DNA from: a virus
Virus record (IMG/VR): IMGVR_UViG_3300028844_002548
Location: 1-30,613 of that record
DNA: 30,613 nt
Strand: one strand, 5' to 3'
A program made the position numbers and the translations under genes. Every line of letters begins with the position of its first letter. Position 1 is the stretch's first letter. Below, in pieces: positions 5,591-26,177 of this stretch. The notes under the pieces were generated by a model. It was not told where the DNA came from, made no database searches, and was given only the letters and a program-made list of their open reading frames with translations.

Positions 5591-6529
5591 ATGCCACTAT
5601 TAGGAACATTTGGAGCAGGATCCGCAGGAGGCTACGGTCAAAGAAAAGGCGGTGTAGCACCTAATCCATTTACAGCAGATTATTTAATGGTCGCTGGAGG
5701 GGGGTCAGGAAGAGGCGGAATCGGCGGCGGAGGCGGAGGCGGCGGATTATTATATTCATATTGTAATTCGTGTGCTGCTGGAATAGGTTTTGATGCCGGA
5801 CTTTACAATATTACAATCGGAGCAGGTGGTTCTGCAGGTGTTGGAACAGACACAACAATAATTTCATGTGGAGCACTTGCATGTATTTCTAAAACAGCAA
5901 CTAGAGGTGGACATGGACAACCATGTAGCCCGGCACTTAGAAATGGAGGATCAGGAGCAGGTGGAGGTCACCAAGGAACTGGAGGTTCTGGAAACACTCC
6001 AGCAGTACCGACTGCATTAGGTGGTCCTCAAGGTAATAATGGCGGCGGAGCAGGTTCAGGAAACTATGCAGCATCTGGCGGCGGAGGTCGAGGTGGAGCT
6101 GGAGTATCTTCTTCAGGACCAGGAGGCGGCGGAGGCTCAGGAGGAGTAGGTATAACAGTAAGCATTGATGGAAGTCCAAGACAATTCTCCGGAGGCGGCG
6201 GAGGCGGAGCATACAATCCAGGAACAGCAGGAGGAGGTTCTCCTTGTGGATCTGGTGGAGCAGGAGTTCCAGGAACAGGCCCAACAACAGCCCCTCCAGC
6301 TAGTAATGGAGCCGAAAACCGAGGTGGTGGCGGTGGAGGAAATGGTGAAGTTGCACCTCCTTCAAATACAGGAAATGGTGGATCAGGTTTTGTTGTTTTA
6401 AGATATCCAAATGCAATAGCCCCATCAATAACAATTGCACCGGGTACAAATGCAACTGCACCTGTACCAGGTTGTCAAACAGCAGCTACATTTACAGTTA
6501 CTGGAACATTTTGTGTGGCGGGTGGTTAA
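5591..6529 (+). CDS. Glycine-rich tail fibre / adhesin with cysteines
   Basis: 312 aa, dominated by Gly from about residue 36 to 265 in GGG blocks interrupted by Ala, Ser, Asn and Pro. The start of the rich region (ADYLMVAGGGSGRGG) and the C-terminal GFVVLRYPNA followed by a short beta domain (about 270-312) match the glycine-rich tail-fibre proteins common in cyanophages and marine metagenomes; glycine-rich repeats of phage adhesins such as those of T4-like gp38 form polyglycine-II sandwiches. Eight Cys are spread through it (YCNSC, SCGALAC, QPCSP, SPCGSG, PGCQT, TFCVA), uncommon for this type. Strong ribosome binding site AGGAGG 8-13 nt before ATG. It lies next to the oxygenase cassette, making it a candidate substrate. 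Likely host-receptor-binding tip. Confidence 0.72.
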   Translation: MPLLGTFGAGSAGGYGQRKGGVAPNPFTADYLMVAGGGSGRGGIGGGGGGGGLLYSYCNSCAAGIGFDAGLYNITIGAGGSAGVGTDTTIISCGALACISKTATRGGHGQPCSPALRNGGSGAGGGHQGTGGSGNTPAVPTALGGPQGNNGGGAGSGNYAASGGGGRGGAGVSSSGPGGGGGSGGVGITVSIDGSPRQFSGGGGGGAYNPGTAGGGSPCGSGGAGVPGTGPTTAPPASNGAENRGGGGGGNGEVAPPSNTGNGGSGFVVLRYPNAIAPSITIAPGTNATAPVPGCQTAATFTVTGTFCVAGG

Positions 6530-6547: not shown

Positions 6548-7033
6548 ATGGCACATTTTGCAAAATTAGATGAAAACAATACTGTAGAAAAGGTAGTAGC
6601 TGTAGCAAATGATATACCTACTTCAAATGGACCATTAGGAGAAAATGATATGCATGTTGATGGAGAAACATGGTGTCAGAATTTTTTTAAAGGTGGTACT
6701 TGGAAACAGACTTCTTATCATGATAATTTTAGAGGAAGATATGCGGGTATAGGTTTTACTTATGACGCTGAAAAAGATAAATTTATTGAACCTCAACCTC
6801 ATGCATCATGGACATTAGATGCAAATGGTGATTGGCAGGCGCCAATAACTTATCCAACAATTATAGATGATGGTGTTGATCCTAGTGTTTGGCATTATTT
6901 AATTATTTGGAATGAAACAAAATATCAAGCTGATAATAATACAGGCTGGGAGGCAAGAAAATCAAACGATAATGTGGCTTTCTCTGAAAAAGCAGTTTAT
7001 AATTGGAACGGCACAACTTGGGTTTCTGAGTAA
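6548..7033 (+). CDS. Conserved fibre-associated marine-phage protein (161 aa)
   Basis: The protein begins MAHFAKLDENNTVEKVVAV and contains GGTWKQTSYHDNFRGRYAGI and PQPHASWTLD segments. This family (small soluble proteins starting MAHFAKLDxNN, often with WKQTSYN and YPSWTLD) recurs in cyanophages and other marine phages near tail-fibre genes. Its function is not established; a fibre tip, fibre-assembly or virion-surface role is guessed from location. It has many aromatic residues (about ten Trp), no signal peptide and no membrane span. AGGA 14 nt upstream could serve as ribosome binding site. It is the last gene before the accessory cassette and is followed by a 73-nt gap with regulatory-looking repeats. 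Confidence 0.65.
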   Translation: MAHFAKLDENNTVEKVVAVANDIPTSNGPLGENDMHVDGETWCQNFFKGGTWKQTSYHDNFRGRYAGIGFTYDAEKDKFIEPQPHASWTLDANGDWQAPITYPTIIDDGVDPSVWHYLIIWNETKYQADNNTGWEARKSNDNVAFSEKAVYNWNGTTWVSE

Positions 7034-7106
7034 TATTTTTTACTTAACATTGACATTTTCATAATAGATGTTAAAACATGTTCATAAAGATATATGAACT
7101 TTACAG
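7034..7106 (+). promoter_or_regulatory. Possible promoter/operator region before the oxygenase cassette
   Basis: This 73-nt gap holds a TTGACA box (7050-7055), followed after 16 nt by the weak -10 candidate TAAAAC (7072-7077). Overlapping it is an inverted repeat TTAACAT (7044-7050) / ATGTTAA (7068-7074), and a second, TTCATA (7081-7086) / TATGAA (7093-7098), lies 8 nt before the start codon at 7107. No Shine-Dalgarno is visible. The repeats could be an operator or simply structured leader RNA. The elements are visible; the function is inferred. Confidence 0.4.
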
Positions 7107-7739
7107 ATGAATTTATTTAATCATTATTGGTATTTTAAATCAGCAATTCCTGTTAGAATTTGTGATGAAATCATAAAATATGGGAAACAGTTACAAGACC
7201 AGATAGCAGTAACTGGTGGTGTTGATCCTAAAAAATTAAATGAAAAATCAATAAAAGATTTAAAAAAGAAAAGAGATTCTAATATTGTTTGGATGAATGA
7301 TCGTTGGATTTATAAAGAAATACAACCTTATGTTCATAGAGCAAACAGTAATGCGGGTTGGAATTTTAATTGGGATTACTCTGAATCTTGTCAGTTTACA
7401 AAATATGAAAAAGGACAATATTATGATTGGCATTGTGATTCTTGGGATAAACCTTATTTTAATGAAAAAAATCCACAAAATCCAACTAATGGAAAAATAA
7501 GAAAATTATCAGTTACTGTTTCTTTATCAGATCCGAAAGATTATAAAGGTGGTGAATTAGAATTTGATTTTAGAAATTTAGACCCTGATAAAAAACCTAA
7601 TATTAAAAAATGTAAAGAAATTTTACCTAAAGGATCTTTAGTTGTTTTTCCTTCACATGTGTGGCATAGAGTATGTCCAGTTAAAAAAGGATCAAGGTAT
7701 AGTTTAGTAATATGGAATTTAGGATGGCCATTCAAGTAA
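7107..7739 (+). CDS. 2OG-Fe(II) oxygenase, prolyl-4-hydroxylase-like (first of four)
   Basis: 210 aa with a complete double-stranded beta-helix oxygenase signature. The Fe(II) ligands are His109-x-Asp111 (in KYEKGQYYDWHCDS) and the distal His187 (in FPSHVWHRV), and Arg197 (SRYSLVIWN) is the probable 2-oxoglutarate anchor. The order (QFTKYEKGQYYDWHCD, then KLSVTVSLS, GGELEF, KGSLVVFPS) fits prolyl-4-hydroxylase/PKHD-type enzymes, which hydroxylate amino-acid side chains using oxygen and 2-oxoglutarate. Substrate is unknown. The ATG has no clear Shine-Dalgarno; regulatory repeats lie just upstream. The next oxygenase begins inside this gene's end in another frame, so the cassette is probably translated as a unit. 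The base composition is visibly more A+T-rich than the neighbouring structural genes. Confidence 0.85.
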   Translation: MNLFNHYWYFKSAIPVRICDEIIKYGKQLQDQIAVTGGVDPKKLNEKSIKDLKKKRDSNIVWMNDRWIYKEIQPYVHRANSNAGWNFNWDYSESCQFTKYEKGQYYDWHCDSWDKPYFNEKNPQNPTNGKIRKLSVTVSLSDPKDYKGGELEFDFRNLDPDKKPNIKKCKEILPKGSLVVFPSHVWHRVCPVKKGSRYSLVIWNLGWPFK

Positions 7740-8200
7740 TAGATAATTTTTTAGATAAAGAAGTTTTTAATAATATTAAAAATATATTACTAGGAGATAA
7801 TTTTCCTTGGTATTACAATGACTTTATGACAAGAGATCCTGATAATAAATTTTATTTTACACATACTTTTTATAGAGAACCAGGAATTGTCAGTGAGTGG
7901 TTTAATATGTGGCTTCCTGTAATACGAAAATTAGAATGTAAAAGTATTATAAGAATAAAAGCTAATAATTATTGTTGGGTACATAAAACAGAACAAAATG
8001 AATTTCACAGTGATTATCCTTTTAAACATAAAGGATGTTTATTATATATAAATAATAATAATGGTCCTACATATTTTAAAAATAAAAAAGTAGAAGCGAA
8101 AGCAAACAGAGTAGTTTTATTTGATCCAAGTGTTCCTCATGCAAGTAGTTTATGTGATAATCGTAAAAGGAGAGTAACAGTTAATTTTAACTATTTTTAA
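7724..8200 (+). CDS. 2OG-Fe(II) oxygenase, small (second of four)
   Basis: 158 aa from ATG 7724 (MAIQVIDNFLDKEVF); an ATG 12 nt earlier at 7712 would add four residues, but MAIQVIDNF is the more usual family beginning. The metal-binding triad is visible: His95-Ser-Asp97 (NEFHSDYPF) and His139 (SVPHASSL), followed by a basic RKRRVTVNFNYF ending with Arg149/150 as candidate 2-oxoglutarate ligand. This short form, with CLLYINNNNGPTYF between the motifs, is common in marine phages and is annotated as a 2OG-Fe(II) oxygenase of unknown substrate. It overlaps the upstream gene by 16 nt and ends 3 nt before the third oxygenase. Role is inferred from motifs only. Confidence 0.78.
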   Translation: MAIQVIDNFLDKEVFNNIKNILLGDNFPWYYNDFMTRDPDNKFYFTHTFYREPGIVSEWFNMWLPVIRKLECKSIIRIKANNYCWVHKTEQNEFHSDYPFKHKGCLLYINNNNGPTYFKNKKVEAKANRVVLFDPSVPHASSLCDNRKRRVTVNFNYF

Positions 8201-8203
8201 AAT

Positions 8204-8893
8204 ATGAAAATAAAACAAACTTATCCTAAACAATTAATTAGAGAAGAACATTTTAAATGTCCAATATGGTTTGCTGATGAACCTACGTTTGTAAAAAGTT
8301 TAAATAAAGCTTCTGATCCACACATTAAAAAAGCAAAGAAAAATTTAAAAGAAGCTACTGATAAAAGAAATAAAAATTTTGGAGATAGGGGTGATATGGG
8401 TAATGTTTTTCATTCAACATCTTTAGTTAATGATCCTAATTTTAAAGATTTACAAAATTATATAGGTGCAACTTCTCATAATTTATTAATAGAAATGGGA
8501 TTTGATTTAACTGATTATCAAGTTTTTATAACTGAAATGTGGGTTCAAGAATTTGCTAAAAATGGTGCAGGGCATCATTCTTTACATACTCATTGGAACG
8601 GACATATATCGGGTTTTTATTTTTTAAAAGCTTCAGATAAAACATCTATGCCAATGTTTGAAGATCCAAGACCTGGTAATTTAATGAATTTACTTCCTGA
8701 AAAAGATAAAACTAAATTAACTTATGCAAATACACAATTACATTATAAAGTTAAACCAGGTAGAATGATTTTTTTTCCATCGTATATGCCACATCAATTT
8801 ATTGTTGATATGGGTTATGATCCCTTTAGATTTATACATTGGAATTGTCAAGCAATACCAAAAGGAGTAATAAATGTCGTTCAAGAAAAATAA
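8204..8893 (+). CDS. Putative 2OG-Fe(II) oxygenase with HxH motif (third of four)
   Basis: 229 aa. The C-terminal half resembles the 2OG-Fe(II) oxygenase family with an H-x-H..SGxYY signature (Pfam 2OG-FeII_Oxy_5 type): HSLHTHWNGHISGFYFLK contains His128-x-His130, EDPRPGNL lies between, GRMIFFPSYMPHQF supplies the distal His197, and Arg209 (FRFIHWN) is a candidate 2-oxoglutarate anchor. The Asp of the classical HxD triad is replaced by His, as I recall for this family. The N-terminal half (1-100) is Lys-rich and unassigned. No Shine-Dalgarno is visible in front of ATG 8204, 3 nt after the previous stop. It overlaps the fourth oxygenase by 20 nt. Function as an oxygenase is likely, substrate unknown. 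Confidence 0.72.
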   Translation: MKIKQTYPKQLIREEHFKCPIWFADEPTFVKSLNKASDPHIKKAKKNLKEATDKRNKNFGDRGDMGNVFHSTSLVNDPNFKDLQNYIGATSHNLLIEMGFDLTDYQVFITEMWVQEFAKNGAGHHSLHTHWNGHISGFYFLKASDKTSMPMFEDPRPGNLMNLLPEKDKTKLTYANTQLHYKVKPGRMIFFPSYMPHQFIVDMGYDPFRFIHWNCQAIPKGVINVVQEK

Positions 8894-9500
8894 ATATACA
8901 GTATTAAAGAAAGCTATCTCAACAGAACTTGCAGAATTTGTTTACAAATATTTTTTAAATAAAAGAAAAGTTGCAAGATTTTTATTTGATCAAAAATACA
9001 TTTCACCCTTTACAGAATACTGGGGTGTATGGACAGATGAACAAGTTCCAAATACTTATTCTCATTATAGTGATTTAGTTATGGAAACTTTACTTCAACA
9101 AGTAAAACCTGTTATGGAAAAACACACTGGATTAAAATTAAGTGAAACATATTCTTATGCTAGAATATATAAAAAGGGTGATACATTAGCACGTCATAAA
9201 GATAGATATTCTTGTGAAATTTCTACAACATTAAATTTAGGTGGGGATAAATGGCCAATTTATTTAGATCCTACAGGTAAAATTGGTCAAGCAGGTATTA
9301 AGGTAGATTTAAAACCAGGGGATATGTTAATTTATTCTGGTTGTGATTTAGAACATTGGAGAGAAGAATTTACAGGTAAAGACTGTGGACAAGTATTTTT
9401 ACATTACAATAAAGCAGGATCTAAATCTGCTAAAGAAAATTATTTAGATACAAGACCTTTATTAGGTTTACCCGCTTGGTTTAAAAAAAGAAATAAATAA
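8874..9500 (+). CDS. 2OG-Fe(II) oxygenase-like protein (fourth of four)
   Basis: 208 aa. YARIYKKGDTLARHKDRYSC shows the His108-x-Asp110 ligand pair, KVDLKPGDMLIYSGCDLEHW contains the distal His161, and ISTTLNLGGDKWPIYLDPTG fits the core strands. Where classical members have an Arg for 2-oxoglutarate, this one has CGQVFLHYN, so a Gln or His would occupy the position. Such sequences are common in marine bacteria and phages under the 2OG-Fe(II) oxygenase name. A good ribosome binding site (AAGGAG, 7 nt upstream) lies inside the end of the third oxygenase gene. Enzymatic activity is probable, but the missing Arg leaves room for a different co-substrate or loss of activity. Confidence 0.75.
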   Translation: MSFKKNKYTVLKKAISTELAEFVYKYFLNKRKVARFLFDQKYISPFTEYWGVWTDEQVPNTYSHYSDLVMETLLQQVKPVMEKHTGLKLSETYSYARIYKKGDTLARHKDRYSCEISTTLNLGGDKWPIYLDPTGKIGQAGIKVDLKPGDMLIYSGCDLEHWREEFTGKDCGQVFLHYNKAGSKSAKENYLDTRPLLGLPAWFKKRNK

Positions 9501-9509
9501 ATTTAAATT

Positions 9510-9830
9510 GTGAAACAATTTAATGAATATTTAGAAAACTTAAAGTATCCATCTAAAAAAGACACTTGGAATATATCTGGAATTATAAAAGGAAAAAATG
9601 CTTTTTATAAATTTGACACAAGACCTATACAAAAAATTAAAGATGGTGAAATAGGTAAATATGGTTCTTTCAATACCAAAGCAGATAAAATAGTATTTGA
9701 AGCTAAAAAACAATGGATTATTGTAGATGTAGAGGAGCTACATAAATATATAAAAGAAAATAAACTTAAAAAGGTTTATTTACAGGATTTGATATCGAGA
9801 CTAGAATGGAATATAATACTACCAAAATAA
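9510..9830 (+). CDS. Unknown Lys-rich 106-aa protein
   Basis: The frame opens with GTG at 9510 (VKQFNEYLENLKYPSKKDTW) and ends 24 nt before the gp10-like gene. It is rich in Lys, Ile and Tyr, with an IIKGKNAFYKFDTRP segment and an amphipathic C-terminal helix (VDVEELHKYIKENKLKKVYL). I do not recognise the family. It has the same A+T-rich composition as the four oxygenase genes and probably belongs to that cassette, with a weak or absent Shine-Dalgarno. A strong promoter-like sequence lies inside its 3' end and would serve the next gene. No membrane span, signal peptide or metal motif is visible. An ATG in the same frame at 9523 would give a slightly shorter product. Confidence 0.6.
   Translation: MKQFNEYLENLKYPSKKDTWNISGIIKGKNAFYKFDTRPIQKIKDGEIGKYGSFNTKADKIVFEAKKQWIIVDVEELHKYIKENKLKKVYLQDLISRLEWNIILPK
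9789..9817 (+). promoter_or_regulatory. Sigma70-like promoter for the gp10-like gene
   Basis: TTGATA (9789-9794) and a perfect TATAAT (9812-9817) are separated by exactly 17 nt. The predicted start of transcription is near 9824, about 30 nt before ATG 9855. It sits within the 3' end of the unknown 106-aa gene, so it could give the tail genes transcription independent of the accessory cassette. In A+T-rich DNA such matches can arise by chance, but spacing and both boxes are good. Confidence 0.5.
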
Positions 9831-9854: not shown

Positions 9855-11678
9855 ATGGCATTAAAAAAAGTAGATTTTGCAGCAGGTTTTAATAAACAAA
9901 GTGTACCTTCAGCTCTTCCAGGACAATGGGTAGACGGAGATTTTGTACGTTTTAGATATACCGCTCCTGAAAAAAAACGATATACAGCTATCGGGACTTC
10001 TCAAGGTCTATTCTTATATTATGGTGAAGCTTTTTACGATATTACTCCTTTAGATACTGCAATTACAGGAGCAACATTTGATACTTTTTCTAGTCAAAAC
10101 AATGTTACTGTTAACAAAACTTCTCACGGTTTACAAGTTGGAAGATACGTAACGTTTACAGCAGTTACTCCTCCGACAGGATACTCCGCAACAGATTTTA
10201 CAACAGGTGCTTTTGAAATTTTAACTGTTCCTAATGATAATACTTTTACTATTCAAATGAGAGTTAATGCAAGTGGTGCAGCATCTGCATCTGGTGCAGC
10301 ATCTATTAATCCTTATGTTGAAGTAGGTCCTACTTTTCAAACGTTAGGTTATGGTTGGAGCACTTACTTATGGGGTGATTCAACATGGGGCACTGAACGA
10401 GGAACTAGTAATGTAATTTTAGATCCTGGTAATTGGTCTTTAGATAATTTTGGAGAAGTATTAGTTGCAACTATTTTTAACGGTAAAACATTTACATGGA
10501 ATGCAGGAGCATCTAATCCAAGAACGGTAAGAGCTTCTTTATCAACCGCTAGTTTTTCTACTTCTGCTAATCCAACAGCTAGTCGATTTACATTAGTTTC
10601 AGATAGAGACAGACATTTATTTCATTTTGGAACAGAAACAACTATAGGAGATACGGCTACTCAAGATCCTATGTTTGTAAGATTCTCGGACCAAGAAAAT
10701 TTAAATGAATATTTACCTACAGCTACCAATACTGCAGGAACATTTAGATTAGACACGGGTAATAAAATTAATGCTGCTCTTCAAGGTAAAGATTATGTTT
10801 TTGTACTAACAGATCTTGCAGCCTATGTTATTCAATTTGTTGGTCCACCATTTACTTTTTCTGTAAGACAAGTTGGTACTAACTGTGGATGCATTGCTCA
10901 ACATGCAGCTACCTATGTTAATGGTGCGGTGTATTGGATGTCAGGAGAAGGTGGGTTTTTTATGTATGATGGTACTGTAAAAGCTTTACCATGTTTAGTA
11001 GAAGATTTTGTTTTCACTACTCAAAACGGAAATTTAGGACTTAATTATAATTCTGCCGACACAATTTATTCTGCTCCAAATAGTTTATACACAGAAGTAA
11101 ACTGGTTTTACCCTAAATCAGGATCAGAACAAGTAGACAGATGTGTGACTTATAACTTTCAAGAAAATTGTTGGACTACTTCTTCTTTAGCAAGAACCAC
11201 TTATCAAGATCAAGGTGTGTTTACTTTACCCTACGCAACAGAATACAATGCAACAACAACTCCTGTATTTTCAGAAATATCGGGAATTACAAATACCTAT
11301 GGAGCATCTATTTATTATGCTCACGAGATAGGAACAGATCAGGTTAATAGTTCAGGTACAACTTCTATTGATGCATTTATAAGATCAGGAGACTTTGATA
11401 TTGAAGATGGAGAATTATTTATGTCTATGAGAAGATTTATGCCAGACTATAAATTTTTAGTAGGCAACTCTAAAGTAACTTTATTTATTTCTGATTATCC
11501 TTCTGACCTTCAATCGGGTTCACCACTCGGACCCTTCACAATAACAAGCACCACTGATAAAGTAGATACTAGAGCGAGAGGAAGATTACTATCTTTAAAA
11601 ATAGAAAATGACGCTGCAGGTGAAACTTGGCGTTATGGTAGTTTTAGAATGGATGCACAACCAGATGGAAGGAGATAA
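9855..11678 (+). CDS. P22 gp10-like packaged-DNA stabilisation / tail hub protein
   Basis: 607 aa. The beginning (KVDFAAGFNKQSVPSALPGQ, then WVDGDFVRFRY) and the repeated beta-propeller-like motifs (ASRFTLVSDRDRHLFHFG, FVRFSDQENLNEYLPTATNT, FVLTDLAAYVIQFVGPPFTF, VYWMSGEGGFFMYDG) identify the P22 gp10 family, which extends the tail below the adaptor ring and seals packaged DNA. Two insert-like beta segments (about 80-150, VTVNKTSHGLQVGRYVTFTA; about 165-180, YLWGDSTWGTE) are typical of marine versions. Around residues 38-43 the text goes from PEK directly to KRYTAIGTSQGLF, lacking about 30 residues (usually starting IGGW) found in relatives as I recall them. No Shine-Dalgarno is seen; a promoter lies just upstream. 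The C-terminus GSFRMDAQPDGRR is typical. Confidence 0.82.
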   Translation: MALKKVDFAAGFNKQSVPSALPGQWVDGDFVRFRYTAPEKKRYTAIGTSQGLFLYYGEAFYDITPLDTAITGATFDTFSSQNNVTVNKTSHGLQVGRYVTFTAVTPPTGYSATDFTTGAFEILTVPNDNTFTIQMRVNASGAASASGAASINPYVEVGPTFQTLGYGWSTYLWGDSTWGTERGTSNVILDPGNWSLDNFGEVLVATIFNGKTFTWNAGASNPRTVRASLSTASFSTSANPTASRFTLVSDRDRHLFHFGTETTIGDTATQDPMFVRFSDQENLNEYLPTATNTAGTFRLDTGNKINAALQGKDYVFVLTDLAAYVIQFVGPPFTFSVRQVGTNCGCIAQHAATYVNGAVYWMSGEGGFFMYDGTVKALPCLVEDFVFTTQNGNLGLNYNSADTIYSAPNSLYTEVNWFYPKSGSEQVDRCVTYNFQENCWTTSSLARTTYQDQGVFTLPYATEYNATTTPVFSEISGITNTYGASIYYAHEIGTDQVNSSGTTSIDAFIRSGDFDIEDGELFMSMRRFMPDYKFLVGNSKVTLFISDYPSDLQSGSPLGPFTITSTTDKVDTRARGRLLSLKIENDAAGETWRYGSFRMDAQPDGRR

Positions 11679-12310: not shown

Positions 12311-12494
12311 AGTAATACCTACAATATATTGTACAACTATAACAACTTATAGAAATACAAAAACAAACGAAGTGTTTAAAGAGAAAGTAGAAGGAGAAAA
12401 TATAGTAACAGATGTTACTGTACAAGTGTCCCCTAAAGGATTAGACATAATGCAGAAAGTGATGAATAGTGATAATAAAAAACCAAAGCCCTAA
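12303..12494 (+). CDS. Unknown small protein (63 aa)
   Basis: The frame is open from ATG 12297 (MKMDKVIPTI) with a second ATG at 12303 (MDKVIPTIYCTTITTYRNTK); GAGAATGAAA at 12293-12302 gives the 12303 start an acceptable ribosome binding site, so I prefer it. The product has a beta-like first half, an EKVEGENIVTDVTVQVSPKG turn and a helix (LDIMQKVMNSDN) with a Lys/Pro tail. The family is unrecognised. It overlaps the preceding gene by 8 nt and the following glycosyltransferase by 26 nt, suggesting coupled translation with both. The role is unknown. Confidence 0.5.
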   Translation: MDKVIPTIYCTTITTYRNTKTNEVFKEKVEGENIVTDVTVQVSPKGLDIMQKVMNSDNKKPKP

Positions 12495-13413
12495 AGGCGG
12501 AACAGAACTACAACTTGGATTTTTAACTAAGCATGTAGATAAAAGTTTATTGGATCAAGTACAGATATGTACAAGCATACCGGGTAAGGTACCTTTAGAT
12601 CCTAATAAAGTAAATATTTTATGGCAAAAAAATTCTTGGGATCAACCTAATCTTTATCCCTGGTTTAAAAATAAAGCTAATCATCATAAGTATGATTGGT
12701 ATGTATTTAATTCGCATTGGAATCATGAAAAATTTAGAATGATGTTTGGTTTACCTCACCATAAATGTATTGTTATTAAAAATGGTATTGAACCTATTGA
12801 AAAATCTAAACCTTATGAAAAAGGAAAACCTATTAAAATCATACACCAAAATACTCCTTGGAGAGGATTGAGTGTATTGCTGGGTGCAATGCAGTTGGTT
12901 AAAAATCCATTGATAAGTTTAGATGTTTATTCTTCAACTGAAATATATGGTAAAGATTTTTATAAAAAAAATGATCACAATTACACAGCACTTTATAAAC
13001 AAGCAGAAGAATTACCTAATGTAAATTATATTGGTTACAAACCAAATGGGTATATTAGAGAACATATAAAAGATTATAATATGTATGTATATCCTAGTAT
13101 TTTTGAAGAAACATCTTGCATATCTTTATTAGAATCTATGGTCGCTGGATTATATTGTATCACTACTAACTACGGAGCTTTATTTGAAACAGGAGCAGAA
13201 TTTCCAATGTATATAGCGTATGACAATAATTACAGAAATTTAGCAGAAAAGTTTGCTTACGGAATAGAAGCTTCTGCAGCAATGTTACATGAACCAACTA
13301 TACAAGAACATTTAACTACTCAATCTAGTTATACTAAAAAATATTATAACTGGAATAAACAAGCTAGTTCTTGGACTAGATTTTTACAAGGAGCAATTAA
13401 TGCAAAAAAGTAA
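12469..13413 (+). CDS. GT4-family (GT-B fold) glycosyltransferase
   Basis: 314 aa from GTG 12469 (VIIKNQSPKGGTELQLGFL). The N-terminal GGTE resembles the nucleotide-sugar-binding entry of GT-B enzymes. The C-terminal domain has KIIHQNTPWRGLSVLLGAMQ, a strand-rich middle, and YVYPSIFEETSCISLLESMV with the E-x7-E signature (Glu214 and Glu222) of GT4 retaining glycosyltransferases, followed by GLYCITTNYGALFET. It would transfer a sugar from a nucleotide sugar to an unknown acceptor. It lacks the membrane segments of cell-envelope glycosyltransferases, so a soluble substrate is likely. The GTG start falls within the preceding gene; no ATG occurs in frame nearby. It is coupled to the next glycosyltransferase by a 14-nt overlap. 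Confidence 0.78.
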   Translation: MIIKNQSPKGGTELQLGFLTKHVDKSLLDQVQICTSIPGKVPLDPNKVNILWQKNSWDQPNLYPWFKNKANHHKYDWYVFNSHWNHEKFRMMFGLPHHKCIVIKNGIEPIEKSKPYEKGKPIKIIHQNTPWRGLSVLLGAMQLVKNPLISLDVYSSTEIYGKDFYKKNDHNYTALYKQAEELPNVNYIGYKPNGYIREHIKDYNMYVYPSIFEETSCISLLESMVAGLYCITTNYGALFETGAEFPMYIAYDNNYRNLAEKFAYGIEASAAMLHEPTIQEHLTTQSSYTKKYYNWNKQASSWTRFLQGAINAKK

Positions 13414-14362
13414 TACGCCCTCGGGCAAAAACAATGAACCCATCTGGTTTGATAAAACAAATTCGAGCCAATCCGTTACCCATAATGAAGACACCTACCA
13501 AACTATAAAAACCAACAAGGTAGATTCTGAAGTCACAGAAATAAATGTAGGAAATGTGTCTCCTTATAAAATTATGGTATGTACACCGTGTCATAGTGAA
13601 GTAACTATGCATTACACGCAAGCTGTTTTAAAATTTCAAATGGCCTGTATGAGAAAAAATATAATGGTGAGTTTTACATTATTGAAATCATCTTTAGTTA
13701 CACAAGGTAGAAACTTATGTGTAGCTAGTATGTTAAACCATGAGGATAACTATACTCATTTATTGTTTATAGATTCTGATATTGATTTTAATTCAGAAAC
13801 TATTTTTAAAATGTTAGAGAAAGACAAAGATATTATTGGTGTTCCTTATCCTATGAAAACATTAGACTGGGATAAAATGTGGAGAAGAATGCATGAAAAA
13901 GAAGATGCAATTGCAGGTCCAAATGATTTAATGCACTCTGGTTATACCTATCCTGTTAAAACAGACAAACCTAATGAAGTCGAAGCTCATGATGGCGTTG
14001 TAGAACTTACCCATATACCAACAGGATGTATGTTAATTAAAAGAAAAGTATTGACAGATTTAATCGAAGCTAATCCAGATCTTGAAATATTTCAAGCAAG
14101 CATCATTAATGGAAAAGAAGTAAAACAACCCAATATGTATAACTTATTTGATACTCTACATGACCCTAAAACTAAACGTTATTTTGGAGAAGACTTTGGA
14201 TTTTGTCAAAGATGGGCCGATATAGGTGGTAAAGTTTATGCTTATATTAATGATTTTATTACTCACGTAGGAGAGTATTCTTATTGTGGCAGATTTAGAG
14301 ATGATCTGTGGCAAGGAAGTAGACCTCTCAAATCGGTTGACGAGCCCAAGAAAATCAAATAA
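13400..14362 (+). CDS. GT-A-type glycosyltransferase with DxD motif
   Basis: 320 aa. Residues about 55-130 carry YKIMVCTPCHSEVTMHYTQA, a SSLVTQGRNLCVASML segment and HLLFIDSDIDF with the Asp125-x-Asp127 metal/nucleotide-sugar motif. IPTGCMLIKRKVL and a C-terminal YFGEDFGFCQRWADIGGKVY segment fit the acceptor-side motifs of GT2/Anp1-like enzymes seen in phages. The first 50 residues are polar, Asn/Thr/Ser-rich and probably disordered. A textbook ribosome binding site (AAGGAG, 13388-13393) inside the preceding gene defines ATG 13400. With its GT4 neighbour it could build a short glycan on a viral or host target; the acceptor is unknown. Confidence 0.75.
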   Translation: MQKSNTPSGKNNEPIWFDKTNSSQSVTHNEDTYQTIKTNKVDSEVTEINVGNVSPYKIMVCTPCHSEVTMHYTQAVLKFQMACMRKNIMVSFTLLKSSLVTQGRNLCVASMLNHEDNYTHLLFIDSDIDFNSETIFKMLEKDKDIIGVPYPMKTLDWDKMWRRMHEKEDAIAGPNDLMHSGYTYPVKTDKPNEVEAHDGVVELTHIPTGCMLIKRKVLTDLIEANPDLEIFQASIINGKEVKQPNMYNLFDTLHDPKTKRYFGEDFGFCQRWADIGGKVYAYINDFITHVGEYSYCGRFRDDLWQGSRPLKSVDEPKKIK

Positions 14363-24095: not shown

Positions 24096-24298
24096 CGACA
24101 CATACATCCAATAAAATTACCACTACCATCATTCATAATATGTAAGTTTAAACTATCTACATAACCAGACAATTTAAGTCTTAAAATATCACACAAAGCA
24201 AAGCAATCAACTTCAGCAGTTATAACAATACCTTCCATAATTTGTTTTGTTACAGGTATTAATTGATACACACCATCATTAAAAATAATTAGATCCAT
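24092..24298 (-). CDS. Unknown small protein (68 aa)
   Basis: The product (MDLIIFNDGVYQLIPVTKQI, then ITAEVDCFALCDILRLKLSG and SLNLHIMNDGSGNFIGCMCR) has four Cys, including a terminal CMC, and no membrane span. I do not recognise the family. Its start overlaps the 3' end of the helicase gene by 10 nt, with GAGAAGAG about 8 nt upstream on the coding strand, so it is probably co-expressed with the helicase. It converges on the late genes, sharing stop bases with the holin-like gene. The length and compact beta/alpha pattern suggest a small soluble early protein. Confidence 0.55.
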   Translation of the reverse strand: MDLIIFNDGVYQLIPVTKQIMEGIVITAEVDCFALCDILRLKLSGYVDSLNLHIMNDGSGNFIGCMCR

Positions 24299-25719
24299 TC
24301 TTTTAACTCTTCTCCCATAACTTCAGATGCAATATTTATTTTTTTACGTAAAGCTTTTACTATACGTTCATCTACAGTTTTTTCGCATATGATATCAATG
24401 TAAGTCATCTTTCTAGTTTGACCTATACGATTTATTCTAGCCTCTGATTGTGTTCTTTTCTCAAGATCATAACCATTAGAATAATAAATCATAACATTAG
24501 CCTCAGTAAGTGTAATACCATAACCACCGGTTTGAGGTGTACCAACTAAGAATCTAACTTTAGATTCAGGATCTTGTATTTCTTTAATAGCTTTGGCTCT
24601 GTCTTCAGTAGACGTGGATCCATAATAAGTCATCACGGAACCCGGATATACCTTTTCAATAGCTTTAACGATGGATTGTATATCATGTCTCCAATGGGCC
24701 CAGATAATAGCTTTACCTTCTACCTCTTCTAGTATGTTCATCAAAGCAGGAATTCTTTCATTCTTAATTATTTTTAAAGTATCATCATCTGCCTTGAAGT
24801 GACCACAAGTAATTTGTTGGAGTCTCATCAACTGAACTAATGCAGTAGAAGTAGTCATCAACTTACCATCCATTTGAGCAAGAGCGACTTGTTTCATTTG
24901 GTCATAAAGTTTTTGTTGTTCTTTACTTAATTGAATAATTCTTTTTTGATAAGTATAATCAGGAAGATCTAAACAATCCTCTTTTAATACACGATCTGAA
25001 AACGTAGTTATTTTTTCTGATAGTTCAGATAGATTTTTATAACCCACTACTATTTGTGCATTGTGTGTAGGTAGTCTCATGGTACTCATGATTGCGTACC
25101 TTGTTCTAAATGCAAGATAAGAAGTAAAATCTAACAACCCTTCATCTAAAAATTCACACTGTTTATATAAATCTAATGGAGACTTTGTAATAGGAGATCC
25201 AGTTAAGATTCTTCTATACTTTGCATGTCTACCTAATGAACAAATATTTTTAGATCTTTTAGCATCAGGATTTTTTATAGTAGTAGACTCATCAATTGCC
25301 ATTAAAGTTCTATGACATCTTAAAAACTTAGCTGCAAACTCTACACCTTTTTCTGTACTGAAAGCATCTACATTCATAATTAATATATGAAGATCCTCAC
25401 CTGTTTCAAATAGAGTATCTAACTTTAATTGTTGTCCTTTATTTATATTGGCTTGCCACAACACCATTTTTTTATCTATGTGGTCCACCATATGGGTAGG
25501 TATCTCTGAGTCGAACCAGTTTTTATAAACACCTTTAGGTGCAATTAAAAGTAGTCCATTAATTTTACCTTTATCATAAAGCATAGATACATTATCTATT
25601 AACACTTTAGATTTACCTGTACCCATTTCCATAAAATAGGCAAAATTTTCTTTATTCCACGATTTTTCTAACGCAGACAATTGATGGTCGTATGGCTTAG
25701 TTTTAAATTTATAGTTCAT
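24289..25719 (-). CDS. SNF2-type superfamily 2 helicase/ATPase
   Basis: 476 aa from ATG 25719 (MNYKFKTKPYDHQLSALEKS); the frame extends to 25818, but the 33 extra residues are hydrophobic and atypical, and AGAAAGAAGA precedes 25719 on the coding strand. Motifs: DHQ Q-motif-like start, EMGTGKSK (Walker A, about 31-38), LLLIAPKGVYKNW (Ia), MAIDESTTIKN (motif II, DEST in place of DEAH), RRILTGSPI (III), KAIIWAHWRHDI (IV), VGTPQTGGYGITLTEANVMI (V) and SEARINRIGQTRK (VI, about 425-437). This order is that of SNF2-like ATPases used by phages in replication or recombination. It is transcribed opposite to the other early genes from the divergent region 25720-25784. Function as a DNA-dependent ATPase is likely; strand unwinding is not assured. 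Confidence 0.88.
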   Translation of the reverse strand: MNYKFKTKPYDHQLSALEKSWNKENFAYFMEMGTGKSKVLIDNVSMLYDKGKINGLLLIAPKGVYKNWFDSEIPTHMVDHIDKKMVLWQANINKGQQLKLDTLFETGEDLHILIMNVDAFSTEKGVEFAAKFLRCHRTLMAIDESTTIKNPDAKRSKNICSLGRHAKYRRILTGSPITKSPLDLYKQCEFLDEGLLDFTSYLAFRTRYAIMSTMRLPTHNAQIVVGYKNLSELSEKITTFSDRVLKEDCLDLPDYTYQKRIIQLSKEQQKLYDQMKQVALAQMDGKLMTTSTALVQLMRLQQITCGHFKADDDTLKIIKNERIPALMNILEEVEGKAIIWAHWRHDIQSIVKAIEKVYPGSVMTYYGSTSTEDRAKAIKEIQDPESKVRFLVGTPQTGGYGITLTEANVMIYYSNGYDLEKRTQSEARINRIGQTRKMTYIDIICEKTVDERIVKALRKKINIASEVMGEELKEWI

Positions 25720-25736
25720 AATAATTCTTCTTTCTG

Positions 25737-25772
25737 TTGACAGTGGTACCATAACCCTATAGTAGATGTCAA
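25737..25772 (+). promoter_or_regulatory. Sigma70-like promoter within a divergent intergenic region
   Basis: TTGACA (25737-25742), a 16-nt spacer and TATAGT (25759-25764) form a near-consensus promoter aimed at the gene starting 25785, with transcription starting around 25771. The reverse complement of TTGACA (TGTCAA) lies at 25767-25772, so two -35-like hexamers face each other; the minus-strand one lacks a convincing -10. AGGA at 25775-25778 is the ribosome binding site of the rightward gene. The helicase promoter on the other strand is not clear. Confidence 0.6.
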
Positions 25773-25784
25773 TAGGAAAGTTAT

Positions 25785-26177
25785 ATGGGATTAACAACAT
25801 TAAATACAATACCAACACAAAACCATCAATCGGTTGTGTATATTATCCAAGAATTACCAGGAACCAAAATAGGTGCACCTAAATTTAATATTATGGGAGC
25901 TCAAAAGTTTGGTACCTTAAAAACTTTATTACCAGAACATTCACAAATTATATTATCTCCAGGGCCCTTAATTTTTAAATTAAGAAAACTGTTAGATAAA
26001 TATACCCCCAAAGATTATTTACTACTTACAGGTGACCCTGCAATCATAGGTGTAGCTTGTTCAATTGTGGCAGATAAAACTGGGGGAAAATTTAATTTAC
26101 TTAAATGGGATAGACAAGAAAAGACTTATTATCCAATAGAAATAAATTTATATGAACAAGGAAAGATTGAAGAATAA
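25785..26177 (+). CDS. Conserved phage early protein of unknown function (130 aa)
   Basis: The protein contains VVYIIQELPGTKIGAPKFNI, MGAQKFGTLKTLLPEHSQII, SPGPLIFKLRKLLDKYTP, DYLLLTGDPAIIGVACSI and KFNLLKWDRQEKTYYPIEIN, a pattern conserved in many marine and other phages directly beside replication genes. No function is established as far as I know; the compact alpha/beta pattern with LLTGDP suggests a small soluble protein. Members usually begin at the YIIQE segment, so the first 17 residues may be an extension; GTG 25836 is an alternative start, but the good promoter and AGGA ribosome binding site favour ATG 25785. It is the first gene of the rightward early unit. Confidence 0.7.
   Translation: MGLTTLNTIPTQNHQSVVYIIQELPGTKIGAPKFNIMGAQKFGTLKTLLPEHSQIILSPGPLIFKLRKLLDKYTPKDYLLLTGDPAIIGVACSIVADKTGGKFNLLKWDRQEKTYYPIEINLYEQGKIEE

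Follow-up and report, generated by a model that had tools for sequence, protein, structure and literature searches.

We analyzed a 30,613-nucleotide stretch of viral DNA (positions 1 to 30,613 of the IMG/VR record IMGVR_UViG_3300028844_002548; the window below means this whole stretch) and found that a block at positions 7107-9500, inside the tail module, encodes four predicted non-heme Fe(II) oxygenases of the 2-oxoglutarate (2OG)/double-stranded beta-helix superfamily, which we term OxA, OxB, OxC and OxD. Such a row of four had been proposed from the sequence alone in an earlier note (the original prediction), and profiles, conserved residues and structure models bear it out. The genes form a discrete, modular and recombining cassette, with OxA, OxC and OxD as the core and OxB and some further oxygenases as optional members. 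The oxygenase cluster as such is already known; what our analysis adds is the corrected identity of two of its members and a tie to a gene for a glycine-rich, tail-adhesin-like protein, which we tentatively propose as the substrate.

Identification of the four oxygenases

OxA, OxB, OxC and OxD are successive open reading frames (ORFs) on the plus strand. OxA (7107-7739, 210 amino acids) belongs to the Pfam family 2OG-FeII_Oxy_3 (PF13640, E=1.1e-17, 65.2 bits against a curated cut-off of 27) and to PHROG 61 (phrog_61, 2.7e-39), which is labelled 2OG oxygenase. It has the HxD...H metal site of the superfamily and the 2OG-binding arginine, and this triad (H109/D111/H187) and arginine (R197) are at least 97% conserved among 99 sequences; phmmer matched it to structures of the PKHD-type hydroxylase PiuC. 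OxC (8204-8893, 229 amino acids) is of the 2OG-FeII_Oxy_5 type (PF13759, E=1.5e-13, 51.4 bits against a cut-off of 27), which likewise places it in the superfamily, and is assigned to phrog_81 (2OG oxygenase). Its residues H128, H130, H197 and R209 are at least 97% conserved among 87 sequences. The HTH sequence of OxC is not a degraded HxD, since its HxH aligns in phmmer with the same pattern in the solved relatives 3bvc and 2rg4. Pfam profiles, which the original prediction had named as a check for each protein, thus recovered OxA and OxC above their cut-offs but left OxB below and OxD without any match.

For OxB (7712-8200, 162 amino acids, PHROG 274), the only Pfam match was PF13640 at E=0.01, while 20 of 48 relatives matched this family, the best at 8.7e-7. 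In an alignment of 48 sequences from the fetched contigs, residues H99, D101, N132, H143 and R154 are invariant. The AlphaFold2 model of OxB (predicted local distance difference test score, pLDDT, 94.4) and the alignment together give the double-stranded beta-helix, the HxD...H site and the arginine, and a Foldseek search of the PDB ranked a Dictyostelium prolyl hydroxylase first, with PHD2 and further 2OG enzymes next. OxD (8874-9500, 208 amino acids, PHROG 2954) was modelled as the same fold with a pLDDT of 95.0, and its best Foldseek matches in the PDB were Pseudomonas putida prolyl-4-hydroxylase structures (4j25 and 4iw3). Its HxD...H site is conserved among 46 sequences from the fetched contigs (H108 and D110 invariant, H161 in at least 90%). 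However, OxD lacks the 2OG-anchoring arginine or lysine about 9-12 residues past the distal histidine, and a near-invariant glutamine (Q173) sits near the usual position, so 2OG is only a putative co-substrate of this enzyme. The fold that the original prediction had named as decisive is therefore predicted for both doubtful members. OxA, OxB and OxC are almost certainly oxygenases, and OxD is very probably one as well.

The two modelled enzymes, OxB and OxD, are closest by predicted fold to protein prolyl hydroxylases. Their best Foldseek matches mostly act on protein prolines, namely P. putida prolyl-4-hydroxylase with EF-Tu, PHD2, and the Dictyostelium enzyme. The HxD...H metal site of P. 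putida prolyl-4-hydroxylase and PHD2 is shared with OxB and OxD, whereas the conserved arginine of these hydroxylases is absent in OxD. The template modelling scores of these matches (about 0.5-0.7) are moderate and the identities low (9-18%), which fixes the fold and the superfamily, not the substrate.

The genes of the block overlap or nearly touch, as had been noted, with two overlaps (28 and 20 nucleotides) and one 3-nucleotide gap. The block is also richer in A+T than its flank (25-29% GC against 33-49% upstream in 1-kb windows), a contrast due in part to the glycine-codon bias of the upstream gene. The statement that the genes mostly lack Shine-Dalgarno sites is true of three of the four; OxD has a clear AGGAG at 8863-8867 on the plus strand. 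The four proteins are as dissimilar as was claimed: the best all-against-all BLASTP value was E=0.015, and because pairwise similarity was never significant, tandem duplication is rejected. Profile-profile comparison links them (OxA-OxB 6e-17, OxA-OxC 1e-14, OxA-OxD 1.5e-7). These observations support the view of the cassette as an assembly of different enzymes.

Two misleading family labels

The family of OxB, phrog_274, is labelled "DNA endonuclease V", and the family of OxD, phrog_2954, is labelled "ferrochelatase". Among 48 OxB family members, the commonest Pfam matches were to 2OG and hydroxylase families and none was to an endonuclease, and the best 50 fold matches were nearly all prolyl hydroxylases, again with no endonuclease. 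On fold and profiles we therefore reject a T4 endonuclease V (DenV) identity for OxB. For the OxD family, 0 of 46 members matched a ferrochelatase Pfam family at E-values up to 0.1, ferrochelatase was absent from the matches of the PDB profile search, and no chelatase appeared among the best 50 fold matches, so that a ferrochelatase identity is rejected in the same way. Neither label is supported by the profiles and predicted folds, and both appear to be mislabels for their families.

Some OxD homologues occur in other settings. In some cyanophages, OxD- and OxA-type domains are seemingly fused in one polypeptide: the first half of PHROG 3531 matches OxD and its second half OxA, and both family matches fall within open frames of about 400-455 amino acids in S-T4 (W10:9319-10467) and S-SCSM1 (W15:216923-218263). 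OxD homologues were also found at five bacterial-genome loci (including L333-L336) with the titles Pelagibacter, Dehalococcoidia and Maricaulis, all metagenome-assembled or single-cell genomes. These five loci gave no cellular context and are probably phage DNA, because at least one of them (L333) has the same neighbours.

Conservation and modularity of the cassette

We fetched loci with OxD, OxC and OxB from IMG/VR and labelled their genes with profiles that also catch paralogues; since the contigs share ancestry, the synteny counts given below are not independent. Among loci with both ends, the order OxA-OxC-OxD was found 106 times and OxA-OxB-OxC-OxD 36 times. The genes are contiguous in almost all related contigs, with an A-C-D core and an optional B, in agreement with the expectation that related phages keep them together. 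The block is also contiguous in cultured or complete relatives, as A-C-D in HTVC023P and HTVC033P and as B-A-C-D in 023Pt_psg01. Longer runs were observed elsewhere: five to six oxygenase genes in a row in HTVC008M and Mosig, about eight in S-SM1, and about seven to nine oxygenase-like genes across the cyanophages S-SM1, S-CREM1, S-RIM44 and S-RSM4. Four in a row is confirmed, but as a noteworthy feature it is precedented, since eight co-located 2OG genes were reported in 2022 and the cyanophage runs are similar or longer.

In several relatives, nucleotide matches span 7040-9485 as a unit (often starting near 7040-7107), and the small gene n4 is shifted there from upstream to downstream of the cassette; this is what marks the cassette as modular and recombining. 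Its members also come and go singly. The contig L151, which is about 90-97% identical to the window, carries an extra PF13640 oxygenase gene (L151:3603-4100) after OxB and before OxC, and in it OxA is cut to 134 amino acids by an in-frame stop (L151:2506-2910). The multistep pathway suggested in the original prediction is one possible reading of the block; such cases, together with the optional OxB, point to parallel modification of one target at least as much as to an obligate sequence of steps.

The glycine-rich neighbour across phage lineages

Upstream of the block, at 5591-6529 on the plus strand, lies a gene for a protein with 33% glycine and a Gly_rich_2 domain (PF21722, 3.5e-8). Judged by domain, composition and position, it is tail-adhesin-like, and it is our proposed substrate. 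In 124 of 145 loci the ORF just before OxA is glycine-rich, and every one of the 78 loci with enough sequence has such an ORF within 3.5 kb, against a base rate of 166 glycine-rich ORFs among 1144 complete ORFs overall in the loci. The placement of Gly_rich_2 next to an oxygenase run recurs, in several layouts, in pelagi-podophages, pelagimyophages and cyanomyophages. In four genomes of 141-194 kb (HTVC008M, Mosig, S-SM1 and S-RSM4), the sole Gly_rich_2 match adjoins the run; in HTVC008M it lies on the opposite strand, 1.1 kb from OxD, and in Mosig the distance is 1.3 kb. In S-RIM44, S-CREM1 and Sf-FP1, tryptophan halogenases stand between Gly_rich_2 and the oxygenases (L339:1-2041, L341:1-6 and upstream, and L345:562-2118, respectively); the S-CREM1 run includes a JmjC-like protein.

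Altogether, seven of eight large genomes have Gly_rich_2 and an OxD homologue less than 9 kb apart, a result equalled by 0 of 100,000 random rotations, with the 9-kb threshold picked after the data were seen and the related cyanophages not being independent samples. Phages without Gly_rich_2 (HTVC010P, 011P, 019P, 026P and CRP-212) are also without 2OG-FeII_Oxy_3 (PF13640). The motifs PPQG and QGN are strongly over-represented in the glycine-rich proteins, which may merely reflect domain homology.

Several observations weigh against a functional tie between the cassette and the adhesin. Besides the shared ancestry of the contigs, the adhesin role is itself putative, and OxD is without the usual 2OG anchor. 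A log-distance version of the rotation test is weaker (p=0.017). HTVC103P has Gly_rich_2 without 2OG-FeII_Oxy_3, Melnitz-3 has several Gly_rich_2 genes with its oxygenases located elsewhere, and S-SCSM1 and P-SSM2 carry both Gly_rich_2 and cassette-type genes, but apart from each other. OxD homologues are found without Gly_rich_2 in S-T4, S-H9-2 and P-SSM7, and OxB homologues often lie away from any adhesin. Finally, the glycine-rich proteins show no enrichment of collagen-like X-Pro-Gly over shuffled sequences (1663 PG observed, 1777 expected), which gives no support to recognition of the kind seen in collagen-type prolyl-4-hydroxylases.

Proposed function of the cassette

Because the modelled enzymes resemble protein hydroxylases in fold and the adhesin gene repeatedly lies beside the run, we propose that the cassette oxygenases modify the neighbouring glycine-rich adhesin post-translationally. 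The enzymes would be made late in infection together with the tail proteins, and would hydroxylate or otherwise oxidize side chains of the adhesin, perhaps of proline or asparagine, before the virion is assembled. Each enzyme may have its own target residue or position, which would account for the gain and loss of members one at a time. The benefit could be a diversified or stabilized receptor-binding surface. Hydroxylation followed by glycosylation is conceivable, given a group 1 glycosyltransferase gene downstream in the window (12469-13413) and in some relatives. Taken whole, with both substrate and chemistry putative, this proposal is one that we favour without yet calling it probable, and the adhesin as substrate is a weaker step in it than the oxygenase identity. 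With greater reserve, we consider it possible that swappable oxygenases, in some phages with halogenases and glycosyltransferases, decorate each phage's own glycine-rich adhesin as a tail-tip modification system of several marine lineages, in which enzymes would be won and lost one by one and the host-facing surface would vary accordingly.

A rival reading is that the cassette helps to make or decorate a secondary metabolite or a surface polysaccharide by oxidizing a small molecule or glycan, as suggested for a cyanophage cluster with a halogenase and 2OG enzymes in a jumbo-phage survey (PMC7824862). The tryptophan halogenases beside the run in S-RIM44, S-CREM1 and Sf-FP1 and the glycosyltransferase downstream in the window and relatives are consistent with such a role, in which carbamoyltransferases might also take part. 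However, we saw no scaffold builder (non-ribosomal peptide synthetase, polyketide synthase or peptide synthetase) in the block, the pelagi-podophage cassettes examined are without an adjacent halogenase, and the constant partners are tail-type genes, all of which make this explanation unlikely.

Action on host metabolism, in which the oxygenases would convert host small molecules or drain 2OG and so shift the nitrogen or energy status of SAR11 or cyanobacteria, seems somewhat less probable again. Modulation of 2OG was proposed for cyanophages by Sullivan et al. (2010; PMC3037559), and 2OG-Fe(II) oxygenases are numerous in marine phages. Yet a single enzyme would suffice to drain 2OG, against four to nine different ones observed, and this reading gives no reason for the contiguity of several dissimilar enzymes in the tail module, next to the same adhesin family, in separate lineages.

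The ends of tail modules are often variable regions, and the glycine-rich gene may merely be co-resident there while the oxygenases act in parallel on different proteins of the virion or the host surface. A second neighbour of the cassette is a virion structural protein of PHROG 3287 (9855-11678, plus strand; 1.3e-71), whose gene comes next after OxD in 102 of 131 loci. The strand of the glycine-rich gene and its order relative to the run both vary, which favours a specific tie over one inherited arrangement, and we regard mere co-residence as rather improbable.

Repair or modification of nucleic acids by AlkB- or TET-like enzymes is more improbable still. Repair was proposed for Syn9 homologues (as reviewed in PMC2984593) and is implied by the "endonuclease V" label, and OxD has a weak profile match to the Naegleria Tet-like dioxygenase. 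That match is not significant (E=0.29), and a TET-like kinship of OxD is rejected. The best fold matches of OxB and OxD are prolyl and small-molecule hydroxylases rather than AlkB or TET enzymes, no endonuclease family was matched, and the genes lie among tail genes rather than replication genes.

The idea that OxD is a ferrochelatase working with the oxygenases in heme or iron chemistry, which follows the public annotation and the "partner-AMG" interpretation in PMC9599517, has next to no probability, given the HxD...H beta-helix of its model (pLDDT 95), which matches 2OG hydroxylases, the 0 of 46 ferrochelatase matches, and its profile homology to OxA (1.5e-7).

Relation to known systems

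According to Wittmers et al. (2022; PMC9599517), eight non-orthologous 2OG auxiliary metabolic genes (AMGs) are co-located with a "ferrochelatase" in HTVC023P-type pelagiphages, and the 2OG/"ferrochelatase" pair is read as functionally related partners. The phage group, the gene families and the co-location are the same as in the window. In contrast to that account, which calls the oxygenases nearby rather than adjacent and the "ferrochelatase" a heme-chemistry partner, we find the genes contiguous, the "ferrochelatase" to be a predicted further oxygenase, and a glycine-rich tail gene to be the constant neighbour. The labels "Hyp. with ferrochetalase domain" and denV appear in Sullivan et al. 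(2010; PMC3037559), and later records carry them likewise.

The runs of the T4-like cyanophages S-SM1, S-CREM1, S-RIM44 and S-RSM4 include OxB- and OxD-family members and adjoin Gly_rich_2, as in the window, but they are longer, some have a JmjC-like member and tryptophan halogenases, and the phage family and hosts differ. The gp38 adhesin of T2, S16 and PP01, a polyglycine II sandwich, is a glycine-rich receptor-binding tip that the neighbour in the window resembles by composition; unlike in the window, oxygenases are not mentioned beside it in the available portion of PMC12892980. A partial literature search found no paper in which these oxygenases are connected with tail adhesins.

Abundant ocean phages commonly carry 2OG oxygenases as accessory genes, and earlier readings of them (DNA repair, nitrogen control, heme partnership) lean in part on a pair of labels for which the predicted folds give no support. 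Their recurrent association with a single kind of glycine-rich tail protein offers a concrete candidate substrate in phages that are already cultured, among them the Pelagibacter phages HTVC033P, HTVC023P and HTVC008M, grown on HTCC1062. If the proposal is true, many "auxiliary metabolic genes" would become virion-modification genes.

Other genes of the window

The gene n4 (6548-7033, plus strand) encodes a small PHROG 7759 protein (phrog_7759, 3.8e-37) without a convincing relative in Pfam and PDB searches. Among 188 complete members of its family, 144 have a glycine-rich ORF within 200 bp upstream, and n4 is a possible adhesin partner or chaperone. The gene n5 (9510-9830, plus strand; from the ORF list) encodes a 106-amino-acid protein that ends the block in the nearest relatives, where it was found in L151, L019, L131 and L136; in L151, the structural gene past n5 looks like another version. 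The group 1 glycosyltransferase gene and a PHROG 1574 gene (13400-14362) follow downstream of the structural gene, a position kept in several relatives. The sole long reverse-strand gene of the window is an SNF2/helicase-type gene at 24289-25818 on the minus strand, where the GC skew changes sign.

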